From Niveibacterium umoris (GTDB lineage Bacteria; Pseudomonadota; Gammaproteobacteria; Burkholderiales; Rhodocyclaceae): a stretch of DNA of 64,000 nucleotides. The stretch's first letter is position 1; the number at the start of each line of letters is the position of its first letter. Position numbers and translations under genes: made by a program. Shown here piece by piece: positions 11,496 through 44,704 of this stretch. The stretch lies in the NCBI RefSeq assembly GCF_014197015.1, contig NZ_JACIET010000001.1, forward strand, positions 496,001 to 560,000, given 5' to 3'. The notes under the pieces are model-generated. The model did no database searches, had not been told where the DNA came from, and was given only the letters and a program-made list of their open reading frames with translations.

Positions 11496-11533
11496 CGGCA
11501 GAAATGGCCGGTGTTTACCGGCGTGTTCTGCCG
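11496..11533. promoter_or_regulatory. Tandem activator sites upstream of the flhF sigma-54 promoter
   Basis: CGGCA-GAAAT-GGCCG (11496-11510) and CGGCG-TGTTC-TGCCG (11519-11533) each match CGGCA-N5-TGCCG at 9 of 10 positions. Their centres are 23 bp apart, about two helical turns. The nearer centre (11526) is 72 bases before the -24 GG of the promoter. I infer binding by FlrC; this is not demonstrated. Confidence 0.65.
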
Positions 11534-11596: not shown

Positions 11597-11611
11597 TGGA
11601 ACGGCGCTTGC
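11597..11611 (+). promoter_or_regulatory. Sigma-54 promoter of flhF
   Basis: TGGAACG-GCGC-TTGC matches the -24/-12 consensus TGGCACG-N4-TTGC with one change and has the obligatory GG-N10-GC spacing. It sits 60 bases before the flhF ATG and after the flhA terminator. Confidence 0.75.
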
Positions 11612-11670: not shown

Positions 11671-13299
11671 ATGATCAACGTCAAACGCTACTACGGCCGC
11701 ACCGCGCGCGATGCGCTCCGGCTCGTCAAGGAAGAGCTCGGCAACGATGCCGTGGTGCTTTCGAACCGGGCGGTCGATGGCGGTGTCGAGATCCTCGCCT
11801 TGCCGAGTGAAGAGGTCGGCGCGGTGCAGGCAGGCATTCGCGCGCAGACGCGCGCCCAGCCGGCCCCGCCACCGGCGCCCGAGCCGATCCGCGTGCAAGC
11901 GCCCGCACCGCGTGCCGTGGCCGCCAAGGCGCCGCCCCCAGCGATCGCGATGCCGCGCGAAGAAGAACACGATTTCCGCGTCAGCCTGAGCACCCGCGTG
12001 GCGCACGCCAACAACACTGCGGAGTCGTTCACTCAAGGGCTGGCAGAGGGCGTGCCGCACGCGGTCAGCGATCCGCGCGCGCAGATTCGCCCCTTCATTC
12101 CGCCGCGGGTCGACCGCGCTGGCCGGCCAGTGGAGCCGCCGCTGGAGCGCCCGACGCCGCCGGAAGACCCATGGGCGCAACGCGCCGAGTTGCGCGCCGA
12201 GGCTGCGGAACCCTATCCCGCGCGCCCGCAGCCGGCACAGCCGCAGGTTTCGCGCCGCGAACGCCAGGCCGAGGAGCGCGCCGCAGAGATCGCTGCTCGC
12301 ATGGCGGCCGACGCGGCGGAAGCCGAGAAGGTGCGTGCGCTGGAAGCCGCCAATGCGAAGATGGCCGACGAACTCGGTGCGATTCGCGGCATGATCGAAC
12401 GCCAGCTCGCCGGCTTCGCCTGGGGAGAACTGACCCGCGGTGCACCGGTACGCGCCCAGATCATGGGCGAACTGCTGGAAACCGGCTTTTCGGCGCAGCT
12501 CTCGCGTGAATTGACCGAGACGGTACCGGTCGACGTTGCTGCCGACACCGCGCGCACGATGGTGCGCAACCAGATCAGCCGTCGCATGCTGACACTCGAA
12601 TCCGAAGCAGATCTGATCGAACGTGGCGGGGTGTATGCGCTGGTCGGGCCGACCGGGGTCGGCAAGACCACCACCGCGGCCAAGCTCGCTGCGCGGTGTG
12701 TGGTGCGCCACGGCGCGGACCGGCTTGCGCTGATCACGACAGACGGTTACCGGATCGGCGCGCATGAGCAACTGCGCATCTACGGCCGCATCCTCGGCGT
12801 GCAGGTGCACACGGTGCGCGACGCGTCCGAACTGCGCCGCACGCTGCAGGATCTGGCCGGCAAGCACATGGTGCTGATCGACACGATCGGCATGAGCCAG
12901 CGCGACAAGATGGTCGCCGAACAGGCCGCGATGCTCTCCGGCGCGGGCTGCGTTCGCCGGCTCCTGCTGCTCAACTCGACCAGCCGCGGCGACACGCTTG
13001 AAGACGTGGTGCGTGCCTACGAAGGGCCGGACCTGGCCGGCTGCATCCTGACCAAGACCGATGAGGCGGTGTCGCTTGCCCCTGCGCTGGACGTGGTGAT
13101 CCGGCACGAGCTGCGTGCCTACTACGTGGCCAACGGGCAGCGCGTGCCGGAAGACCTGCACCTGCCCAACCGTGCCTGGCTGACCCACCGTGCCTTGCGC
13201 GAACTGACGCCGGACTCGCCATTCCGGCTTACCCCCGAAGATGCCGGGCTGCTCAGTTCCGCCCCGCGCCTTCGTGGCAACGATGGAGCGCACGCATGA
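11671..13299 (+). CDS. flhF: Flagellar SRP-type GTPase FlhF
   Basis: The 542-residue protein sets flagellar number and polar placement. The N-terminal basic segment (INVKRYYGRTARDALRLVKEELG) is family-typical and is followed by a long Ala/Pro-rich linker (about residues 60-230). The NG GTPase domain carries the P-loop GPTGVGKTTTAAKL, a DTIGMSQRD switch and TKTDEA. ATG 11671 has GGAG upstream. The stop overlaps the start of the FlhG-like gene (ATGA), indicating coupled translation. Presence of FlhF suggests a polar flagellum. Transcription probably starts at the sigma-54 promoter at 11597. Confidence 0.95.
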   Translation: MINVKRYYGRTARDALRLVKEELGNDAVVLSNRAVDGGVEILALPSEEVGAVQAGIRAQTRAQPAPPPAPEPIRVQAPAPRAVAAKAPPPAIAMPREEEHDFRVSLSTRVAHANNTAESFTQGLAEGVPHAVSDPRAQIRPFIPPRVDRAGRPVEPPLERPTPPEDPWAQRAELRAEAAEPYPARPQPAQPQVSRRERQAEERAAEIAARMAADAAEAEKVRALEAANAKMADELGAIRGMIERQLAGFAWGELTRGAPVRAQIMGELLETGFSAQLSRELTETVPVDVAADTARTMVRNQISRRMLTLESEADLIERGGVYALVGPTGVGKTTTAAKLAARCVVRHGADRLALITTDGYRIGAHEQLRIYGRILGVQVHTVRDASELRRTLQDLAGKHMVLIDTIGMSQRDKMVAEQAAMLSGAGCVRRLLLLNSTSRGDTLEDVVRAYEGPDLAGCILTKTDEAVSLAPALDVVIRHELRAYYVANGQRVPEDLHLPNRAWLTHRALRELTPDSPFRLTPEDAGLLSSAPRLRGNDGAHA

Positions 13300-14081
13300 A
13301 AGCCGGCTTCGAGGATCAGGCCGCGGGTCTGCGCAAGCTGTTGCGCAAGGCGCCGCCGCAGGTGGTTGCGGTCAGCGTGTTCGGTGCCCGTGCGATGCAC
13401 TGGTTTGCCGGGCAGGCGCTGACGCGGGCGCAGGGCGGCCGGCATGTGGTGGCTTTCGACGAAATGGCGACCAGCGGAAATTTCGCCGATGCACTGGGTG
13501 CCGCGGCGCGCTTCGATCTGTTGCAGGCGGTGGAACGCCATGTCGCGCTTGACGCCGTGCGGGTCGATGCCGGGCCGGGCTTGTCGCTGTTCCCTTCGGC
13601 GCGGCTTGCGCGTGCGCTCAACGGTGCCGACCGGGTGCTCAGCGATCGCTTCGCCGATACTTGCCGCGCGCTGCAACGAGGCAGCGATCTGTGGCTGATC
13701 CATGCGCGGCCCGACGAGGGGCGGGTGCTCTCGCCGCTGGCCAGCGCAGCGCACCGTATGGTGGTGGTGCTCGACGGCTCGCCGCGTGCGACGACCGAAG
13801 CCTATGCCTTGATCAAACGGCTCGACGGCGGGCCATGGCCGCAGATCGACCTGGCGCTCGCGCCGGCACGCGATCCGGACGAGGCCGAAGCGTTGCTGGC
13901 CAACCTGATCCTGGTCGGCCACCGGCAGACGGGACTCGCGCTGCGCCGGGTAAGCAGCCTCGAAGCCTGCGCGGCCGCTGCGGCGGCAGTGTCGGATTCG
14001 GCAGCGGATGGCGTCTTCCTTGAACGCGTGCTGGGTCTGGCCAAGCGGCGCCAGCGCACATCGATGGCGCTGGCCATGTAG
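13296..14081 (+). CDS. FlhG/FleN-like protein with degenerate ATPase site
   Basis: The 261-residue protein sits where flhG/fleN normally lies, and its start overlaps the flhF stop (ATGA). The N-terminus keeps DQAAGLR (residues 7-13), the DQAxxLR motif by which FlhG stimulates the FlhF GTPase. The MinD/ParA fold is recognisable at VVVLDGSPRATTEAYALIKRL. However, the expected Walker A (SGKGGVGKT) reads SVFGARAMHW at about residues 27-36, with no Lys and no Gly-Lys-Thr, and the DxD-type switch is also lost. ATP binding is therefore unlikely. I infer a retained role as FlhF regulator without the ATPase clock; an unrelated function cannot be excluded. Confidence 0.7.
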   Translation: MKAGFEDQAAGLRKLLRKAPPQVVAVSVFGARAMHWFAGQALTRAQGGRHVVAFDEMATSGNFADALGAAARFDLLQAVERHVALDAVRVDAGPGLSLFPSARLARALNGADRVLSDRFADTCRALQRGSDLWLIHARPDEGRVLSPLASAAHRMVVVLDGSPRATTEAYALIKRLDGGPWPQIDLALAPARDPDEAEALLANLILVGHRQTGLALRRVSSLEACAAAAAAVSDSAADGVFLERVLGLAKRRQRTSMALAM

Positions 14082-18672: not shown

Positions 18673-19380
18673 TCAGGGCGTGATCTCGACGCGCCCGCCA
18701 GGCTTGGCGATCCCTTGCAATACCTTGCCGGAATCGAGCCTCACCTGGACAAGCTGCCCCTCGGCGCCGGGCGTCAGCGCGACGCCCTGATTCGCGACTT
18801 CGAAGCCTCCGCCCTGCGCTATGACCTGCACCCGTTGCCCGCGTTCCACCACTTGTACCGTCAGCAACTGGCTGCTGAGCAGTGCGCTGCCACTGGCGAC
18901 CGGCTGGCGCAGCGTGCGGCCGGTGGCTTGCGTGGCAGCGGTGAGCACGCCTGCACCCTGGGCGGCCAGATCGCCGTGGCGCACTTCCCAATCGCTCGTT
19001 CCGAGCACGGTTCCTGCAGCAAGTGGCCGCGAGGCGACCAGATAGTCGCCTTCAATCCTTACGTGCGCGGCGACATAAAGCGTCCACGCCGGCGCGCTGC
19101 AACTGACTCCGACCGTAGTGCGGCCCCAGGCCCGTTGCCCGCTCGGAAAGAATGCCCTCAGCGTGTTGCACGACTTGGCGTTGCGCGGGATGGCGGTGTC
19201 CGCCAACTCGATCTTCACCTCGCCGAGGCCCGGCGTGGCGGCTCGCTGCAGAAAATCGACCACGCTATCGCGGATCGCCGCCCGCGCAGGCGTCATCGGC
19301 TCGCTGGCGCGCGCCGCGCTGGCGAAGATCAGTGCGGCGCCAAGCAGCGATGTGAGCAGGAATCGGGTCTCGGTCTTCAT
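18673..19380 (-). CDS. flgA: P-ring assembly chaperone FlgA
   Basis: The 235-residue protein has a Sec signal peptide (FLLTSLLGAALIFASAARA) and a C-terminal SAF domain (LAAGTVLGTSDWEVR, GRTLRQPVASGSAL, GQRVQVIAQGGGFEV). FlgA is periplasmic and assists assembly of the FlgI P-ring. It is divergent from flgB, and the shared 215-base intergenic region holds the tandem activator sites, so it may be controlled by the same regulator, although no promoter toward flgA is evident. Confidence 0.93.
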   Translation of the reverse strand: MKTETRFLLTSLLGAALIFASAARASEPMTPARAAIRDSVVDFLQRAATPGLGEVKIELADTAIPRNAKSCNTLRAFFPSGQRAWGRTTVGVSCSAPAWTLYVAAHVRIEGDYLVASRPLAAGTVLGTSDWEVRHGDLAAQGAGVLTAATQATGRTLRQPVASGSALLSSQLLTVQVVERGQRVQVIAQGGGFEVANQGVALTPGAEGQLVQVRLDSGKVLQGIAKPGGRVEITP

Positions 19381-19420
19381 CGATGCGGATTGTCACATGG
19401 GCAGCGCTTGCCGTGCCGGC

Positions 19421-19457
19421 CGGCAAGGCTTGCCGTTCGCGGCGGCAGTCAGTGCCT
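19421..19457. promoter_or_regulatory. Tandem activator sites upstream of the flgB sigma-54 promoter
   Basis: CGGCA-AGGCT-TGCCG (19421-19435) is a perfect palindrome and CGGCA-GTCAG-TGCCT (19443-19457) matches 9 of 10 positions. Centres are 22 bp apart, and the nearer centre (19450) is exactly 72 bases before the -24 GG, the same geometry as at flhF. FlrC is the inferred ligand. Confidence 0.7.
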
Positions 19458-19520
19458 GAATTGCCGGCTTTATCCGTCTCTATTCGGCGCAAGGCCTGCT
19501 GTGCGTGGCGACGAGAATGC

Positions 19521-19535
19521 TGGCACGGAAGCTGC
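19521..19535 (+). promoter_or_regulatory. Sigma-54 promoter of the flgB operon
   Basis: TGGCACG-GAAG-CTGC matches TGGCACG-N4-TTGC with one change and GG-N10-GC spacing. It lies 61 bases before the flgB ATG and can drive the rod and hook operon flgBCDEFGHIJ. Confidence 0.85.
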
Positions 19536-19595: not shown

Positions 19596-20003
19596 ATGAC
19601 CACCACAGCGATTGACCGTCACCTTGGATTCCAGCAAGCCGCGCTGAATGCGCGTGCTTACCGCCAGGAACTGCTCGCCGCCAACATCGCAAACGCCGAC
19701 ACCCCGCACTACAAGGCGCGGGACATCGACTTCAAGGAGGCACTCATGGGCGCACTGGACGGTAAGGTCAAGCCACTGGCGCTGAATACGACCTCGGCGC
19801 GGCACATCGACGCCGGCGAGAAATCGCCGATGTCGCCCTTCGTCAAGTATCGCCAGGAGACGCAATCCGCTGTTGACGGCAACACCGTGGATATGGATAT
19901 CGAACGTTCCGCCTTCGCCGAGAACGCGGTGCAGTACGAGGCCAGCCTCTCGTTCATCAATGGTCTGCTGCGTTCGATGCAGCAGGCGGTTTCGAACCAG
20001 TAA
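19596..20003 (+). CDS. flgB: Flagellar proximal rod protein FlgB
   Basis: The 135-residue protein is the usual FlgB length. It has the rod-protein N-terminus RQELLAANIANADTPHYKARDIDF and the helical C-terminal end, both typical of axial proteins. I chose ATG 19596 because AGGAG lies eight bases upstream; the reading frame extends to 19383 but that part overlaps the activator and promoter sites. It is the first gene of the rod-hook operon. Confidence 0.95.
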   Translation: MTTTAIDRHLGFQQAALNARAYRQELLAANIANADTPHYKARDIDFKEALMGALDGKVKPLALNTTSARHIDAGEKSPMSPFVKYRQETQSAVDGNTVDMDIERSAFAENAVQYEASLSFINGLLRSMQQAVSNQ

Positions 20004-25908: not shown

Positions 25909-26796
25909 ATGGCCGTGCCGATCCAGGATTCGATCTTCGACACGCGCCGCCTCGGCGAGCTCAAGCGCCTCTCCGGCGAACGCTCGCCGGAGGCGCTGAA
26001 GGCAGTCGCGCAGCAATTCGAAGCGCTGTTCATGCAACTGGTCATCAAGCAAATGCGCCAGAGCGCGAGTTTTGGCGACGCCCCTTTCGATGGCGAGACT
26101 GCGCAGTTCTATCGCGGCATGGCCGACCAGCAACTTGCGCTGAACCTCTCGAAGAAGGGCGGGCTGGGCCTGGCCAAGGCGATCGAACGTCAGCTTGGCG
26201 CGAGCATGGGCCTGCAAGCGGAGCCTTCGACCGACATTCCGGCGCCACCTCGCACGGCGCCTTTGCCGGGCCATGCGGCAAAGTCTGCCGCCGCGGCAAG
26301 CGCCGGGCAGAATCCGCCGGATAACGGCAATGCGGCAAGCTTCATCGACCGCATCTGGAACCATGCCAAGCAGGCCGCGCAGTCGCTCGGTGTGCCGACC
26401 CAGTTCATCGTCGGTCATGCGGCGCTCGAGACCGGCTGGGGCAAGTCCGAGATCGCCCGGCCCGATGGCAGCCCTTCCTACAACCTGTTCAACGTGAAGG
26501 CAGGTAGCGACTGGAAGGGCGATACCGTCGAGGCTTCGACCATCGAGTACATCGGCGGCGTGGCGACGCGGCGCACCGAACGCTTCCGCGCCTATGCCTC
26601 GTACGACGACGCGTTTCGCGATTACGCGCGGCTGATTGGAGCGAATCCGCGCTATGCCCAGGTTGCCGGGCAGTCCGATGCCGCTGGGTTCGCGCGCGCG
26701 TTGAGCCGTGGCGGTTACGCGACCGACCCGATGTACGCCGACAAGCTCACCCGCATCATCGGCGGCAACACCCTCCGCGCTGCCCTGTCGTCCTGA
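25909..26796 (+). CDS. flgJ: Flagellar rod cap and peptidoglycan hydrolase FlgJ
   Basis: The 295-residue protein is the bifunctional form. The N-terminal rod-cap domain (LKAVAQQFEALFMQLVIKQMRQS) is followed by a linker and a C-terminal glucosaminidase domain (FIVGHAALETGWGKSEIARPDGSPSYNLFNVKA) with the catalytic Glu in ETGWGKSE. It opens the peptidoglycan for the rod. It is the last gene of the flgB operon before a 104-base gap to flgK. Confidence 0.95.
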   Translation: MAVPIQDSIFDTRRLGELKRLSGERSPEALKAVAQQFEALFMQLVIKQMRQSASFGDAPFDGETAQFYRGMADQQLALNLSKKGGLGLAKAIERQLGASMGLQAEPSTDIPAPPRTAPLPGHAAKSAAAASAGQNPPDNGNAASFIDRIWNHAKQAAQSLGVPTQFIVGHAALETGWGKSEIARPDGSPSYNLFNVKAGSDWKGDTVEASTIEYIGGVATRRTERFRAYASYDDAFRDYARLIGANPRYAQVAGQSDAAGFARALSRGGYATDPMYADKLTRIIGGNTLRAALSS

Positions 26797-26851
26797 GCGC
26801 ACCCCGCGCGGCCTGCGATCAGCGGGCAATCAAGCTATCCCCGAATTCAGG

Positions 26852-26879
26852 CAAAGGAATTGCTTAGATAAGCCGTAAA
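26852..26879 (+). promoter_or_regulatory. Possible sigma-28 promoter of flgK
   Basis: CAAA-N16-GCCGTAAA resembles TAAA-N15-GCCGATAA but has a one-base longer spacer and three mismatches. flgK-flgL are often FliA-dependent, which is the main reason to list it. Confidence 0.35.
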
Positions 26880-26900
26880 CGGCATTACGGGGTGACCATC

Positions 26901-32863: not shown

Positions 32864-32878
32864 CGGCAAGAATTGCCG
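32864..32878. promoter_or_regulatory. Perfect CGGCA-N5-TGCCG palindrome in the fliN-fliO gap
   Basis: CGGCA-AGAAT-TGCCG is an exact copy of the motif found before flgB and fliF. It is centred 49 bases upstream of the fliO start and no sigma-54 promoter with proper spacing lies between. It may be a regulator site or a simple hairpin (GCCGGCAA/TTGCCGGC). The rest of the 235-base gap has no gene I can support. Confidence 0.5.
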
Positions 32879-35221: not shown

Positions 35222-36571
35222 TCAAGCGAAGGTGTCAATCATTCCCCTGCCTGCAGACCACACGGCCCGACTCGCAGCGGGAATCACGTCACCTTCATCC
35301 ATTTGTGTCCGGCTGCCCGTGCGCGATCCACCGGACCATCCGGGGTTCTCCTGCGACGGGTCTTTCGTGCTGTTTGCGCTCACGTTGACCTGCCCCAGGC
35401 TCAGCCCGGCGTCAGTCATCAACTCACGCAAGCGCGGCAAGGACTGCTCGATGGCTTCACGCGCGGCGGGCGTTGCCGTCACGAAGCTGGCGGTGGTCTG
35501 GTCGCCATTCACATGCAGCGTGATCTCGACGCGCCCCAGATGCGGTGGCGTCAGGATCAACTCTGCGCGGCCCAGTTCCTTGCCGGCCATCCACACCATC
35601 CGATTGCCGACATCGTCGGCCCAGCCTTGCTGCGACACCGGCGTACGGACCGCGAACTGCGGTGCGTCGGTTCGGGCGGCCTCGGCGGTGCGCGACGCCG
35701 TCGTGGCCGACAAGGCTTGCGCGGCGGCTTGCGTGGCATCCCCCGCCTGGATGGGCGTGTCGGTGGCAAGCAGTTTCTGCGTAGGCACCGCACTGGCCAG
35801 CGCTTCTTTACTGGACTGTGCAGTGATTGCCGCGGCACTGTCTGCGCGCACGGTCGCAAGCACTGACTGGGCGGCGTTGATGTCGGTCGCCTTCGGATGA
35901 TCAGATGTTGCCGTAGATGACACCTGCGAGGAGAAAAGCGTCGCACCAATCTTGCCGCCATCGGGATCTGCTGAGCTGGCGCCTGGTTGCGCGCCGACAG
36001 CCGCTGCCGGCACTGTCGCAGTTGGAAGCAAGTTGGCTCTGCCGGATTGCCCACTGTTAGCCGGTGCATTTCCTGTCGCAGTCGGAGGCGCATTGTTTGC
36101 CCCAGGCTGCGCGCCATTCGCTGCGGCAGTTACTGCCGCTGTCGGCAGCAGATTGCCGGCTTGCGGCAAGGCGCTGGCATCGCTTGCCGCTGCCGCGGGC
36201 TCGGTTGCGGCAGGCGCGATGCTGGCGGCGGGCGTTGCCTCGACGGCTTTGTCCGCATTGGGTGTGGCGCCGAATGCGGCGAGCAGGGCAGCCGCGATCT
36301 GCGCCAGTTGCGCCGGGTCTTCACCGCTCGCCTGCGCGTCGTCAGACTGCTCGGCGGAACCCTTGCCGTCGACAGCCTTGCCTTGTGGCGGCTGGCTTTG
36401 CGCGCCTTGGTTCGCCTTGACCTTGGCGTCCAGCGTATTGGCAAAGCTGCCTTGCTGATCGCCTTGTGTGCGCTGTTCGGACGCGTTTGCTGGCGCGCTC
36501 CCCTGTACCGGTGACGTCGGTGCGACTGCAGCGGGCATCGGGCTTGGGGTGACAGTGTTCAGTGCTGACAT
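35222..36571 (-). CDS. fliK: Flagellar hook-length control protein FliK
   Basis: The 449-residue protein has a long Ala/Gln/Pro-rich N-terminal ruler and a conserved C-terminal domain (GRAELILTPPHLGRVEITLHVNGDQTTASFVTATPAAREAIEQSLPRLRELMTDAGLSLGQVNV). FliK measures hook length and triggers the FlhB switch. The ruler includes a 21-residue segment repeated with a 40-residue period (residues 140-160 and 180-200). It begins 48 bases after a sigma-54 promoter and can be expressed separately from fliFGHIJ. Confidence 0.92.
   Translation of the reverse strand: MSALNTVTPSPMPAAVAPTSPVQGSAPANASEQRTQGDQQGSFANTLDAKVKANQGAQSQPPQGKAVDGKGSAEQSDDAQASGEDPAQLAQIAAALLAAFGATPNADKAVEATPAASIAPAATEPAAAASDASALPQAGNLLPTAAVTAAANGAQPGANNAPPTATGNAPANSGQSGRANLLPTATVPAAAVGAQPGASSADPDGGKIGATLFSSQVSSTATSDHPKATDINAAQSVLATVRADSAAAITAQSSKEALASAVPTQKLLATDTPIQAGDATQAAAQALSATTASRTAEAARTDAPQFAVRTPVSQQGWADDVGNRMVWMAGKELGRAELILTPPHLGRVEITLHVNGDQTTASFVTATPAAREAIEQSLPRLRELMTDAGLSLGQVNVSANSTKDPSQENPGWSGGSRTGSRTQMDEGDVIPAASRAVWSAGRGMIDTFA
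35972..36154 (-). repeat. Tandem repeat within fliK (120-bp period)
   Basis: Residues 140-160 (36092-36154) and 180-200 (35972-36034) read NLLPTAAVTAAANGAQPGA and NLLPTATVPAAAVGAQPGA plus two residues. The DNA copies have diverged at many third positions, so the duplication is not recent. Confidence 0.7.
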
Positions 36572-36618: not shown

Positions 36619-36633
36619 GCAAAGCCCGTGCCA
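36619..36633 (-). promoter_or_regulatory. Sigma-54 promoter of fliK
   Basis: On the minus strand TGGCACG-GGCT-TTGC is a perfect match to the -24/-12 consensus. It lies in the fliJ-fliK gap, 48 bases before the fliK ATG, and can drive fliK-fliL-fliM-fliN. No good CGGCA-N5-TGCCG pair is seen at the -72/-94 positions within fliJ. Confidence 0.85.
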
Positions 36634-42127: not shown

Positions 42128-42163
42128 CGGCAGTTTTTGCCGCCTATTCAGCGCTTGTTGCCG
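42128..42163. promoter_or_regulatory. Tandem CGGCA-N5-TGCCG sites between fliF and flrB
   Basis: CGGCA-GTTTT-TGCCG (42128-42142) is exact and CAGCG-CTTGT-TGCCG (42149-42163) matches 8 of 10, with centres 21 bp apart. The distance to the candidate fliF promoter is only 22 and 43 bases, shorter than at flhF and flgB. Either the promoter call is wrong or the site works differently here, for example on the divergent flrBC operon. Confidence 0.55.
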
Positions 42164-42224: not shown

Positions 42225-43340
42225 ATGCAAGAGACGATCCAGCCACCTCTCGACGCCGCCCAGCTCGCAGAAGCCTTCCGCCAGTTCTCGGAGGCCTCGG
42301 CACAGCTCACGCAGGCCTACTCCGGCCTCGAACGCCAGGTCGAACGCCTGAACGAGCGCCTGACCGGCCTGCTGGCGGCGCTGCCGGCCGGCGTGGTATT
42401 GCTCGACGCCTCTGGCAAGGTCGAGCAGGTGAACGCCGCCGGCCGCGCCATGCTGCAGGCCGACCTCGTCGGTACCGACTGGTCCGCCGCCTGTGCGCAA
42501 CTGCTGCGCCCGAGCGACACCACGGCGGAGTTCGAGACCGGCCCGGAAGACGCCGCGCGCCGGCTCGCCCTGTCGCAGACTGCCGAGGATTCGGCCGGCG
42601 GGCGCATCGTGCTGTTGCACGATGTCACCGAGGCTTGGCTGATGCGTCGCAACGCGGCGCGCAACGAACGTTTGGCGGCGATGGGTGAAATGGTCGCGGG
42701 TCTCGCGCATCAGCTTCGCACGCCTTTGGCCGCTGCGCTGCTTTACGCCGGTAATCTCGCCGAGCCGACGCTGTCGCCGGCCGACCGCGTGCGCTGCACC
42801 GAGCGCACCCTCGAGCGCCTGCGCCACCTTGAGCGGCTGATCCGCGACATGCTGAGTTTTGCCCGCGGCGAGGCGCTCGGCAGCGAAGACTTCGATGTCT
42901 GCGAACTTGTCGCCGAACTGGAACACACCATCGAGCCGGTGGCGGCACGGCGCGCTGTGGCGTTCAGCAGCGAATGCCGCTGCGCCGGACTGCGTCTGGC
43001 CGGGCACCGCAAGGACATCGCTGGCGCGCTGACCAACCTGCTCGAAAACGCGCTGCAAGCCGTAGGGGAAGGTGGTTCGGTGCGCCTGCTGGCAGACAGC
43101 GATGCGGAACGGGTCCGCTTCTCTGTCGAAGACAACGGGCGAGGCATCGACGCGGCGCTGCAGGCGCGCCTGTTCGAACCCTTCTTCACCACCCGTGCCG
43201 ACGGCACAGGCCTTGGCCTCGCGATCGCGCGCGGCGTCGCGCGTGCGCACGGGGGCGAAATTTCTTTACGATCGACGCCCGGCGAGGGCAGCACCTTTGT
43301 GCTGGACCTGCCGCTGCCGGCGCGCGAGGAGCTTGCATGA
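42225..43340 (+). CDS. flrB: Flagellar sensor histidine kinase FlrB/FleS
   Basis: The 371-residue kinase has no transmembrane segment, so it is cytosolic. An N-terminal helical segment is followed by a PAS domain (ALPAGVVLLDASGKVEQVNAAGRAML), a HisKA box with H162 in AGLAHQLRTPLAA, and an HATPase domain (NLLENALQAV, DNGRGI, GTGLGLAI). It phosphorylates the response regulator FlrC, whose start overlaps its stop (ATGA). The gene symbol follows Vibrio usage. Confidence 0.9.
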   Translation: MQETIQPPLDAAQLAEAFRQFSEASAQLTQAYSGLERQVERLNERLTGLLAALPAGVVLLDASGKVEQVNAAGRAMLQADLVGTDWSAACAQLLRPSDTTAEFETGPEDAARRLALSQTAEDSAGGRIVLLHDVTEAWLMRRNAARNERLAAMGEMVAGLAHQLRTPLAAALLYAGNLAEPTLSPADRVRCTERTLERLRHLERLIRDMLSFARGEALGSEDFDVCELVAELEHTIEPVAARRAVAFSSECRCAGLRLAGHRKDIAGALTNLLENALQAVGEGGSVRLLADSDAERVRFSVEDNGRGIDAALQARLFEPFFTTRADGTGLGLAIARGVARAHGGEISLRSTPGEGSTFVLDLPLPAREELA

Positions 43341-44686
43341 TCGAGACGCTGCACATCCTGGTGGTCGAGGACGATCCGGACATTCGCGACGCGGTGGCTT
43401 TTACGCTGGAGACGGCCGGCCACATCGTCACCGCGGTGGGCGACGGCCCGGCGGCGCTGGCGCAGCTCGACCGCAGCGCTTTCAACCTGGTCGTCAGCGA
43501 TCTGCGCATGCAGCCGATGGACGGGCTGCAACTGCTCGACGCGATCCGTGCTGGTCACCCGCAGCTGCCGGTGATGCTGATGACGGCGTACGGAGATGTC
43601 GGCACTGCGGTCGCGGCGATGCGGGCCGGGGCCTGCGATTTCCTGCTCAAGCCCTTCGAGCCGGCGGTGCTGCTCGAACAGGTGAGGCGATATGCGATTG
43701 CGGCGCCGGACGAATCCGAAATGATTGCCGAGGACGGACGCACCCGCGAGGTGCTGTCGCTCGCGGCACGGGTCGCCGAAACCGACGCAACGGTGTTGCT
43801 GACAGGCGAATCCGGTACCGGTAAAGAGGTGTTCGCGCGCTACATCCACCGCCACTCGCGCCGCGCGGCGGGGCCTTTCGTTGCCATCAACTGCGCTGCG
43901 ATCCCCGAGACGCTGCTAGAAGCGACGCTGTTCGGCTACGAGAAGGGCGCTTTCACCGGGGCGCAGACTGCGCAGGCTGGAAAGTTCGAACAGGCGGACG
44001 GCGGCACGCTGCTGCTCGACGAGATCTCTGAAATGCCGCTGCCGCTGCAGGCCAAATTGTTGCGCGTCTTGCAGGAGCGCGAGGTCGAGCGTGTCGGTGG
44101 CAAGAAACCGATTGCCCTGGATATCCGCGTGCTTGCCACCAGCAACCGTGACATGCTCAAGGAGGTCCAGGCCGGCCGCTTCCGCGAAGACCTGTACTAC
44201 CGGCTCAACGTCTTTCCGATTGCGATCCCGAGTTTGCGGGAACGTCCGCGCGACATCGCGGCGCTCGCCACCCACTTCCTGCAGCGCCATAGCGAGCGGA
44301 TCGGCAAGGTCGCACGTCTCTCGCCCGAAGCGGCGGCAATTCTTGCCGCCTGGTACTGGCCCGGCAATGTGCGTGAGCTTGAAAACACGTTGCAGCGCGC
44401 CGCGATTCTCGCGCGTGGCGACACCGTCGAAGCCGCCGACATGCGCCTGTGCTTGCCACAGATGGGGGCGCAGGCGGAGGCAACTGCGCCGCCGGAAGCC
44501 AATCTCCTGCTGGTCGAGTCCGACGAGAAACCAAGCAATATGCGGGATCTGGAGAAACAGCACATCCTTGAAACCTTGAAATCGGTCGGTGGCTCGCGCA
44601 AACTCGCTGTCGAGAAGCTCGGCATTTCCGAACGCACGCTTCGCTACAAGCTGCAGCAATATCGCGCTGAAGGCGCTGATGTCTGA
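43337..44686 (+). CDS. flrC: Sigma-54-dependent flagellar response regulator FlrC/FleR
   Basis: The 449-residue NtrC-type activator has a receiver domain with phospho-acceptor D55 in VVSDLRM, an AAA+ domain with Walker A GESGTGKE and the sigma-54 contact motif GAFTGA, and a C-terminal helix-turn-helix (RKLAVEKLGISERTLRYKL). It activates middle flagellar promoters. I infer that it binds the CGGCA-N5-TGCCG sites found in this cluster. A further exact copy lies within its own coding sequence at 44334. Confidence 0.93.
   Translation: MIETLHILVVEDDPDIRDAVAFTLETAGHIVTAVGDGPAALAQLDRSAFNLVVSDLRMQPMDGLQLLDAIRAGHPQLPVMLMTAYGDVGTAVAAMRAGACDFLLKPFEPAVLLEQVRRYAIAAPDESEMIAEDGRTREVLSLAARVAETDATVLLTGESGTGKEVFARYIHRHSRRAAGPFVAINCAAIPETLLEATLFGYEKGAFTGAQTAQAGKFEQADGGTLLLDEISEMPLPLQAKLLRVLQEREVERVGGKKPIALDIRVLATSNRDMLKEVQAGRFREDLYYRLNVFPIAIPSLRERPRDIAALATHFLQRHSERIGKVARLSPEAAAILAAWYWPGNVRELENTLQRAAILARGDTVEAADMRLCLPQMGAQAEATAPPEANLLLVESDEKPSNMRDLEKQHILETLKSVGGSRKLAVEKLGISERTLRYKLQQYRAEGADV
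44334..44348. promoter_or_regulatory. Exact CGGCA-N5-TGCCG palindrome inside flrC
   Basis: CGGCA-ATTCT-TGCCG encodes Ala-Ile-Leu-Ala codons in the conserved AAxILAAWYWPGN region, so it may be chance. It is about 350 bases upstream of the fliE sigma-54 promoter, a distance over which enhancer sites can still act. Confidence 0.35.
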
Positions 44687-44689
44687 AAC

Positions 44690-44704
44690 TGGCACACGGT
44701 TTGC
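44690..44704 (+). promoter_or_regulatory. Sigma-54 promoter of fliE
   Basis: TGGCACA-CGGT-TTGC matches TGGCACG-N4-TTGC with one change and correct spacing. It begins four bases after the flrC stop and lies 27 bases before the fliE ATG. Confidence 0.85.

Follow-up and report, generated by a model that had tools for sequence, protein, structure and literature searches.

The FlbD element (ftr) of sigma54 flagellar genes in Caulobacter crescentus is printed as CCCGGCA-N5-TGCCGGG, and the motif of DVU1063 from Desulfovibrio vulgaris as GGCAxxxxTGCC (PMC3333781). In Vibrio cholerae the rod-hook genes are under FlrBC, a two-component sigma54 activator (PMC6504787), and in Pseudomonas aeruginosa, where the pair is FleSR, FleR has been reported to recognise the flgBCDE promoter (PMC8335546). 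The palindromes found upstream of flgB in Niveibacterium umoris have the core CGGCA-N5-TGCCG, which is held within the FlbD element as printed and resembles the printed DVU1063 motif, the latter having one base less between its halves (PMC3333781). Because of the match to the FlbD element, the kind of enhancer, and of control, is a known one. In the literature searched, which was mostly open-access, we found neither a betaproteobacterial FleR/FlrC consensus nor a register rule for FleR sites.

The window, i.e. the whole stretch of 64,000 nucleotides that was analysed, contains the flagellar genes flhA, flhF, fliA, motC, motD, flgA, flgB to flgL, fliR, fliP, fliO, fliN, fliM, fliL, fliK, fliI, fliH, fliG, fliF, fleS, fleR and fliE (features are listed in Table 1). 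flgB opens a same-strand run of flg genes reaching about 30097 (position contributed to the naming of flgF, flgG and flgL). The intergenic region that separates flgA (-) from flgB (+) contains three CGGCA-N5-TGCCG sites at intervals of 22 bp. The preliminary description had noted a perfect and a 9-of-10 copy in front of a sigma54 promoter, and measurement on the sequence confirms both of them and their distances of 94 and 72 bp; the third, outermost copy is additional to that pair. The promoter has GG-N10-GC in a TGGCAC/TTGC context, it is conserved, and rpoN is present in the genome. The start of flgA is 19-77 bp from the palindromes, which could act on this gene as well. We interpret the palindromes as probable enhancer sites for FleR, an activator of the FlrC/FlbD type, that would drive the sigma54 promoter of flgB (probability about 0.87). 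The basis of this reading is the elements themselves, their conservation, their co-occurrence with fleR and their helical register; the binding of FleR, its phosphorylation, the looping of DNA and the activation of flgB are predictions from sequence.

Table 1. Features of the window (positions counted from its first nucleotide)
Feature	Position	Strand	Remarks
flhF pair of 9/10 palindromes, CGGCAGAAATGGCCG (centre 11503) and CGGCGTGTTCTGCCG (centre 11526)	11496-11533	.	95 and 72 bp
flhF sigma54-like element TGGAACGGCGCTTGC	11597-11611	+	10/11
flgA	18673-19380	-	TIGR03170; divergent from flgB
Third palindrome GGGCAGCGCTTGCCG	19399-19413	.	9/10, centre 19406; 116 bp before -24 GG
Perfect palindrome CGGCAAGGCTTGCCG	19421-19435	.	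10/10, centre 19428; 94 bp before -24 GG; main predicted FleR site
9/10 palindrome CGGCAGTCAGTGCCT	19443-19457	.	centre 19450; 72 bp before -24 GG
Block GAATTGCCG with TTGCCG half-site	19458-19466	.	invariant in source genome and 2 congeners; putative role
flgB sigma54 -24/-12 element TGGCACGGAAGCTGC	19521-19535	+	10/11; GG at 19522-19523
flgB, rod protein	19596-20003	+	TIGR01396, 120.2 bits, cut-off 59.05
Perfect palindrome CGGCAAGAATTGCCG	32864-32878	.	just before fliO (-)
Sigma54 site TGGCACGGGCTTTGC before fliK	36619-36633	-	element of at least 10/11 also in both congeners
Perfect palindrome CGGCAGTTTTTGCCG	42128-42142	.	between fliF (-) and fleS (+); invariant in 2 congeners
fleS, PAS histidine kinase	42225-43340	+	adjoins fleR
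fleR, response regulator / sigma54 activator	43349-44686	+	receiver, AAA+, Fis-type HTH; best solved relative FlrC
Perfect palindrome CGGCAATTCTTGCCG inside fleR	44334-44348	.	350 bp before fliE sigma54 site; invariant in 2 congeners
Sigma54 site TGGCACACGGTTTGC before fliE	44690-44704	+	fliE = 44731-45048

Chance expectation was estimated from 100 dinucleotide shuffles of the window. Six perfect palindromes were observed, against a shuffle mean of 0.3 and a maximum of 2; sigma54-like sites (at least 10/11, with GG and GC fixed) numbered four, against a mean of 1.9 and a maximum of 6. The window has one such sigma54-like site that is preceded at 50-130 bp by a perfect palindrome, at flgB, and two that are preceded at this range by two or more palindromes (up to one mismatch), at flgB and flhF; neither combination appeared in any of the 100 shuffles. 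The genome scan proposed in the preliminary description, carried out over 4.8 Mb with a relaxed combined pattern that was composed after both loci were known, returned exactly two matches, flhF and flgB, and none in the reversed control. A plain sigma54 scan of the genome was uninformative (71 and 66 matches versus 70 and 57 in the reversed control). The palindrome alone shows a mild genome-wide excess, 38 sites versus 27 in the reversed control, and one 25-kb stretch of the flagellar cluster holds six of the 38. That control figure, together with the 62% G+C of the window, is what could be said for regarding the flgB palindromes as chance occurrences or as part of a terminator, a reading contradicted by the shuffles, by conservation and by the lack of excess folding of the array (z -0.35), so that we give it practically no credence. 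A terminator or hairpin at flgB was rejected on the folding result.

Comparison with two genomes of the same genus, G267 and G206, reveals what has been retained at flgB. The perfect palindrome CGGCAAGGCTTGCCG is identical in both at 15 of 15 positions, lying 94 bp from the -24 GG in G267 and 115 bp in G206, and the -24/-12 element with its spacer is invariant. The copy at 72 bp is reduced to 8/10 in G267 and absent in G206, and the copy at 116 bp is kept in neither. Blocks GAATTGCCG and TCTATTCG (19458-19490), between the palindromes and the -24 region, are unexplained and invariant in the two congeners.

A candidate for the cognate activator is encoded in the same cluster. FleR, an FlrC-like protein with receiver, AAA+ and Fis-type HTH domains, scores best among solved structures against FlrC (312.7 bits), which we take to be the Vibrio cholerae protein, and at most 256.6 bits against FleQ; RpoN is also encoded in the genome. 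The genome has 15 matches to PF00158, nine of them strong and all nine with a Fis-type HTH, which leaves room for the idea that another sigma54 activator, NtrC-, PilR- or ZraR-like or FleQ, binds the flgB palindromes. We consider this quite improbable: the flgB site tracks the presence of fleR, while lower-scoring paralogs occur also in genomes without it, and the motif core is that of the FlbD element as printed (PMC3333781). As for FleQ, its domain (PF06490) is found in none of the nine strong activators, and the genome encodes no protein that has both a FleQ and a sigma54-activator domain; the only PF06490 match of the genome lies outside the nine and scores 22.4 bits at a cut-off of 22 bits. 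Across the order, PF06490 matches reach at most 37.1 bits, and in some relatives (G182, G120) the match coincides with fleR itself; therefore the weak matches are receiver domains. FleQ control was rejected, a FleQ-type activator not having been found in the genome.

The distribution of the site was analysed in the order, where 137 of 200 genomes searched have a FlgB match and 130 were examined at flgB; seven (G051, G052, G058, G069, G119, G142, G166) were left out for a partial or unlisted FlgB match. Orthologs of fleR were called at 387 bits or more, the next matches, at about 356 bits and below, being paralogs or three partial matches (G017, G083, G094). The latter were counted apart, and all three genomes have a perfect site. 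Upstream of flgB, a sigma54 element is present in 76 of the 81 genomes with fleR, a perfect palindrome within 300 bp in 60, and one with up to one mismatch in 72; in the 46 genomes without detected fleR the corresponding numbers are 6, 6 and 7. By family, 24 of the 25 that possess fleR have a palindrome with up to one mismatch in some genome. In the exception, f29, all four fleR genomes keep sigma54 elements and lack such a palindrome; these four are among the nine fleR genomes (of 81) without one within 300 bp of flgB. Seven genomes other than those with flhC also lack detected fleR, and five of them have both palindrome and sigma54 element; these five are 67-86% complete, and fleR may be absent only from the assembly. 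Three further single genomes in which fleR was not detected deserve mention: G147 (97% complete) has the sigma54 element without the site, G023 has a perfect site without the element, and G024 has neither. Thus, the site is found with the activator gene apart from G023, G147 and f29. The co-occurrence tracks clades, so that p-values overstate independence, and because genomes of the same clade are not independent we put weight on the pattern rather than on Fisher values. Together with conservation, this pattern supports the earlier suggestion of sigma54 and FlrC/FleR-type enhancer control of flgB, as predicted from sequence.

The same genomes bear on the role of FlhDC, which could be the main activator at flgB instead of FleR and sigma54, with the palindromes as a relic or modulator. 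FlhC is present (282 bits, encoded 86 kb from flgB), and the blocks GAATTGCCG and TCTATTCG between site and -24 region are invariant in the two congeners. Against this, the sigma54 element is invariant in the congeners, and a FlhDC box consensus fits flgB poorly (5 of 16 positions mismatched), with no clear enrichment among genomes that have flhC. We regard this alternative as improbable. In the 39 flhC genomes without detected fleR there is one perfect site and no sigma54 element.

The preferred reading, control by FleR, also has a geometric side. The preliminary description had put the nearer palindrome at exactly 72 bases before the -24 GG and taken the layout as a candidate rule. Where order genomes have both the perfect site and the sigma54 element at flgB, 65 centre-to-GG distances from 63 genomes cluster near 62, 72, 83, 93, about 102-103 and 115, with five outside the main range (128, 129, 139, 149, 201). 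The register at a period of 10.5 bp is R = 0.50 for all 65 distances and R = 0.57 (p = 0.0016) with one distance per family (n=20). We also scanned public species genomes with the pattern CGGCAA-N3-TTGCCG-N60-90-TGGCAY-N6-TGC, which permits distances of 69-99; at least 120 stretches matched, and the 80 matches listed were taken as the sample, 76 of them with a downstream ORF of at least 60 aa. Their distances peak at 72, 84 and 93, with only three of the 80 at 75-80 or 87-89, and R = 0.55 versus 0.10 for a uniform distribution. Removal of five matches that repeat order loci leaves 75 of those listed and R = 0.54, and the 32 listed matches taken as alphaproteobacteria give R = 0.66. The best-fitting period is above 10.5, namely 10.9 in the order set and 11.25 in the 80 listed public matches. 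A fixed distance of 72 bp is thus rejected by the order distances, the public scan and the congener alignment, in which the copy at 72 is poorly conserved. The distances form a comb of which 72 is one tooth, and what is kept is one helical face. Such a register would be expected if the DNA formed a short loop, and looping is the predicted explanation.

The combined pattern belongs mostly to flagellar genes. Using window proteins in tblastn, we found that 56 of the 80 listed public matches lie directly before a flagellar gene and four more near flagellar genes at the edge of the locus, 60 in total; the other 20 have no flagellar match in the locus and still keep the register (R = 0.52, p = 0.003). 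The register may not be strictly flagellar, or some of these 20 may be flagellar genes missed by tblastn, since Pfam finds a flagellin domain in three of the 76 listed downstream proteins (40 of the 76 have Flg_bb_rod). Among the carriers of the listed matches are Propionivibrio, Thauera, Methyloversatilis, Vogesella, Gallionellaceae, Bradyrhizobium, Stappia and Thiodiazotropha. The gene order shared with named carriers suggests a placement of the source genome close to Methyloversatilis and its kin. The pattern was seen also in loci of Corallococcus and Myxococcus (L245, L247, L287) that contain no flagellar match. Two of the 76 listed downstream proteins have an ADYC domain, the tally not specifying their carriers.

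At flhF the preliminary description had reported the same layout as at flgB, and the distances of 95 and 72 bp are indeed those measured. The wider comparison covered flhF loci of 29 order relatives and 28 further loci of the family (the top-scoring ones among 136 and 72 genomes with an flhF match, respectively). None of the 29 order relatives (best of 136; 22 with fleR) has a perfect palindrome at flhF. Four (G150, G020, G196, G034) have a sigma54-like element of at least 9/11 within 350 bp upstream, and beside these four elements no palindrome with up to one mismatch was reported. In 26 of the 29 a long upstream frame (at least 1000 nt) ends within 60 nt of the opening of the flhF frame, which fits joint transcription of flhF from flhA there; in the source genome the upstream gap is 221 nt. 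Among the 28 further family loci (best of 72), a sigma54-like element with palindromes is found only in the congeners G267 and G206, and G269 has a perfect palindrome without a sigma54 element nearby. In G267, 43 of the 44 bases of the flhF block are conserved, as is the -24/-12 element, within an intergenic region of 62% overall identity, while G206 has three 9/10 palindromes, at 123, 104 and 28 bp, plus GGGAACGCGTCTTGC. The proposed common rule for flgB and flhF is supported in part: the layout stands at both loci in the source genome, at flhF it finds no support beyond the genus in the loci compared, and the fixed 72 is not part of it.

The flhF pair (11496-11533) also forms a near-perfect stem-loop, a stretch of 56 nt that includes it folding at -31.9 kcal/mol (z -5.25), and this stem-loop is kept in G267 with one loop base changed (-31.8 kcal/mol). 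Together with the imperfection of both sites and the missing perfect palindrome in the 29 order relatives (best of 136), this makes it a serious possibility, if somewhat short of an even chance, that the 9/10 palindromes form the two ends of a single long stem-loop, a cruciform or an mRNA hairpin after flhA, and are not a FleR enhancer pair. Such a structure would leave unaccounted for that the relaxed combined pattern, albeit composed afterwards, occurs in the genome only at flhF and flgB, that the pair is followed 72-73 bp on by TGGAACG-N4-TTGC, which G267 has retained, and that G206 combines its different set of 9/10 palindromes with GGGAACG-N4-TTGC and a much weaker fold (-16.5). On the sequences compared, we lean slightly towards control of flhF by FleR, which would have arisen within the genus instead of belonging to an old rule. 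The ORF at 13296-14081, in the position of flhG between flhF and fliA, has no Pfam family even at E 10 and no NCBIfam at 0.001; we read it as a degenerate or replaced FlhG.

Besides flgB and flhF, sigma54-like elements of at least 10/11 mark the flagellar promoters of fliE and fliK in the window, and neither of these two has the flgB-type layout. For fliE, the palindrome CGGCAATTCTTGCCG (44334-44348) is a predicted FleR enhancer embedded in the fleR coding sequence. It uses the uncommon codons GCA, ATT and CTT, which in 31 window genes account for 0.13, 0.16 and 0.08 of the codons of their respective amino acids, and 13 of 29 order relatives also have perfect palindromes inside fleR (L092-L095, L104, L105, L107, L113-L115, L117-L119). 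For fliK, about 500 bp separate the sigma54 site from the closest perfect palindrome (36124-36138), which is downstream of it and within the fliK frame. Upstream of fliO, the source genome and the two congeners each have a perfect palindrome, with a different spacer in each congener. For CGGCAGTTTTTGCCG autoregulation or control of fliF is possible. Upstream of flgK (26780-26900) we observed GGCAAAGGAATTGC, a GG-N10-GC sequence invariant in the two congeners that resembles a weak sigma54 element.

Taken together, the predicted course of events at flgB would be as follows. FleS would phosphorylate FleR, the product of a gene of this cluster 24 kb from flgB; the activator would oligomerise on the palindromes, looping out the intervening DNA, and remodel RpoN-RNA polymerase poised at the -24/-12 element, so that transcription of the rod-hook genes would start from flgB. 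The loop would be short, for the most part about 60-120 bp, and would therefore favour palindromes on one face of the helix, so that spacing would evolve in whole helical turns. A broader proposition, that the FleR/FlbD class acts phylum-wide from one helix face at short-range promoters, with spacing drifting in whole turns, and that FleR has newly captured flhF in this genus, has in our judgement even odds. A palindrome in helical register with a -24/-12 element would serve as a predictive signature of likely FleR/FlbD flagellar promoters in unannotated genomes, and the comb of distances as a natural test of short-range DNA looping by sigma54 activators.

With respect to the known systems, FlbD is described as regulated by FliX and not by a FleS-type kinase (PMC3096577), whereas here a histidine kinase gene precedes fleR. 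The sites of FlrC have been described as true enhancers that typically lie downstream of the start (PMC6504787), in contrast to the upstream sites at flgB. The Vibrio cholerae cascade is headed by FlrA, while in the source genome we found FlhC and no protein of the FleQ/FlrA type, which suggests that its flagellar hierarchy combines FlhDC and FleSR and has no master regulator of the FleQ type. Finally, flhF of Pseudomonas aeruginosa is listed among the FleQ-dependent early genes (PMC3930126), whereas in this one genus it may be under FleR; such a capture, if true, would tie flagellar placement to the rod-hook checkpoint.
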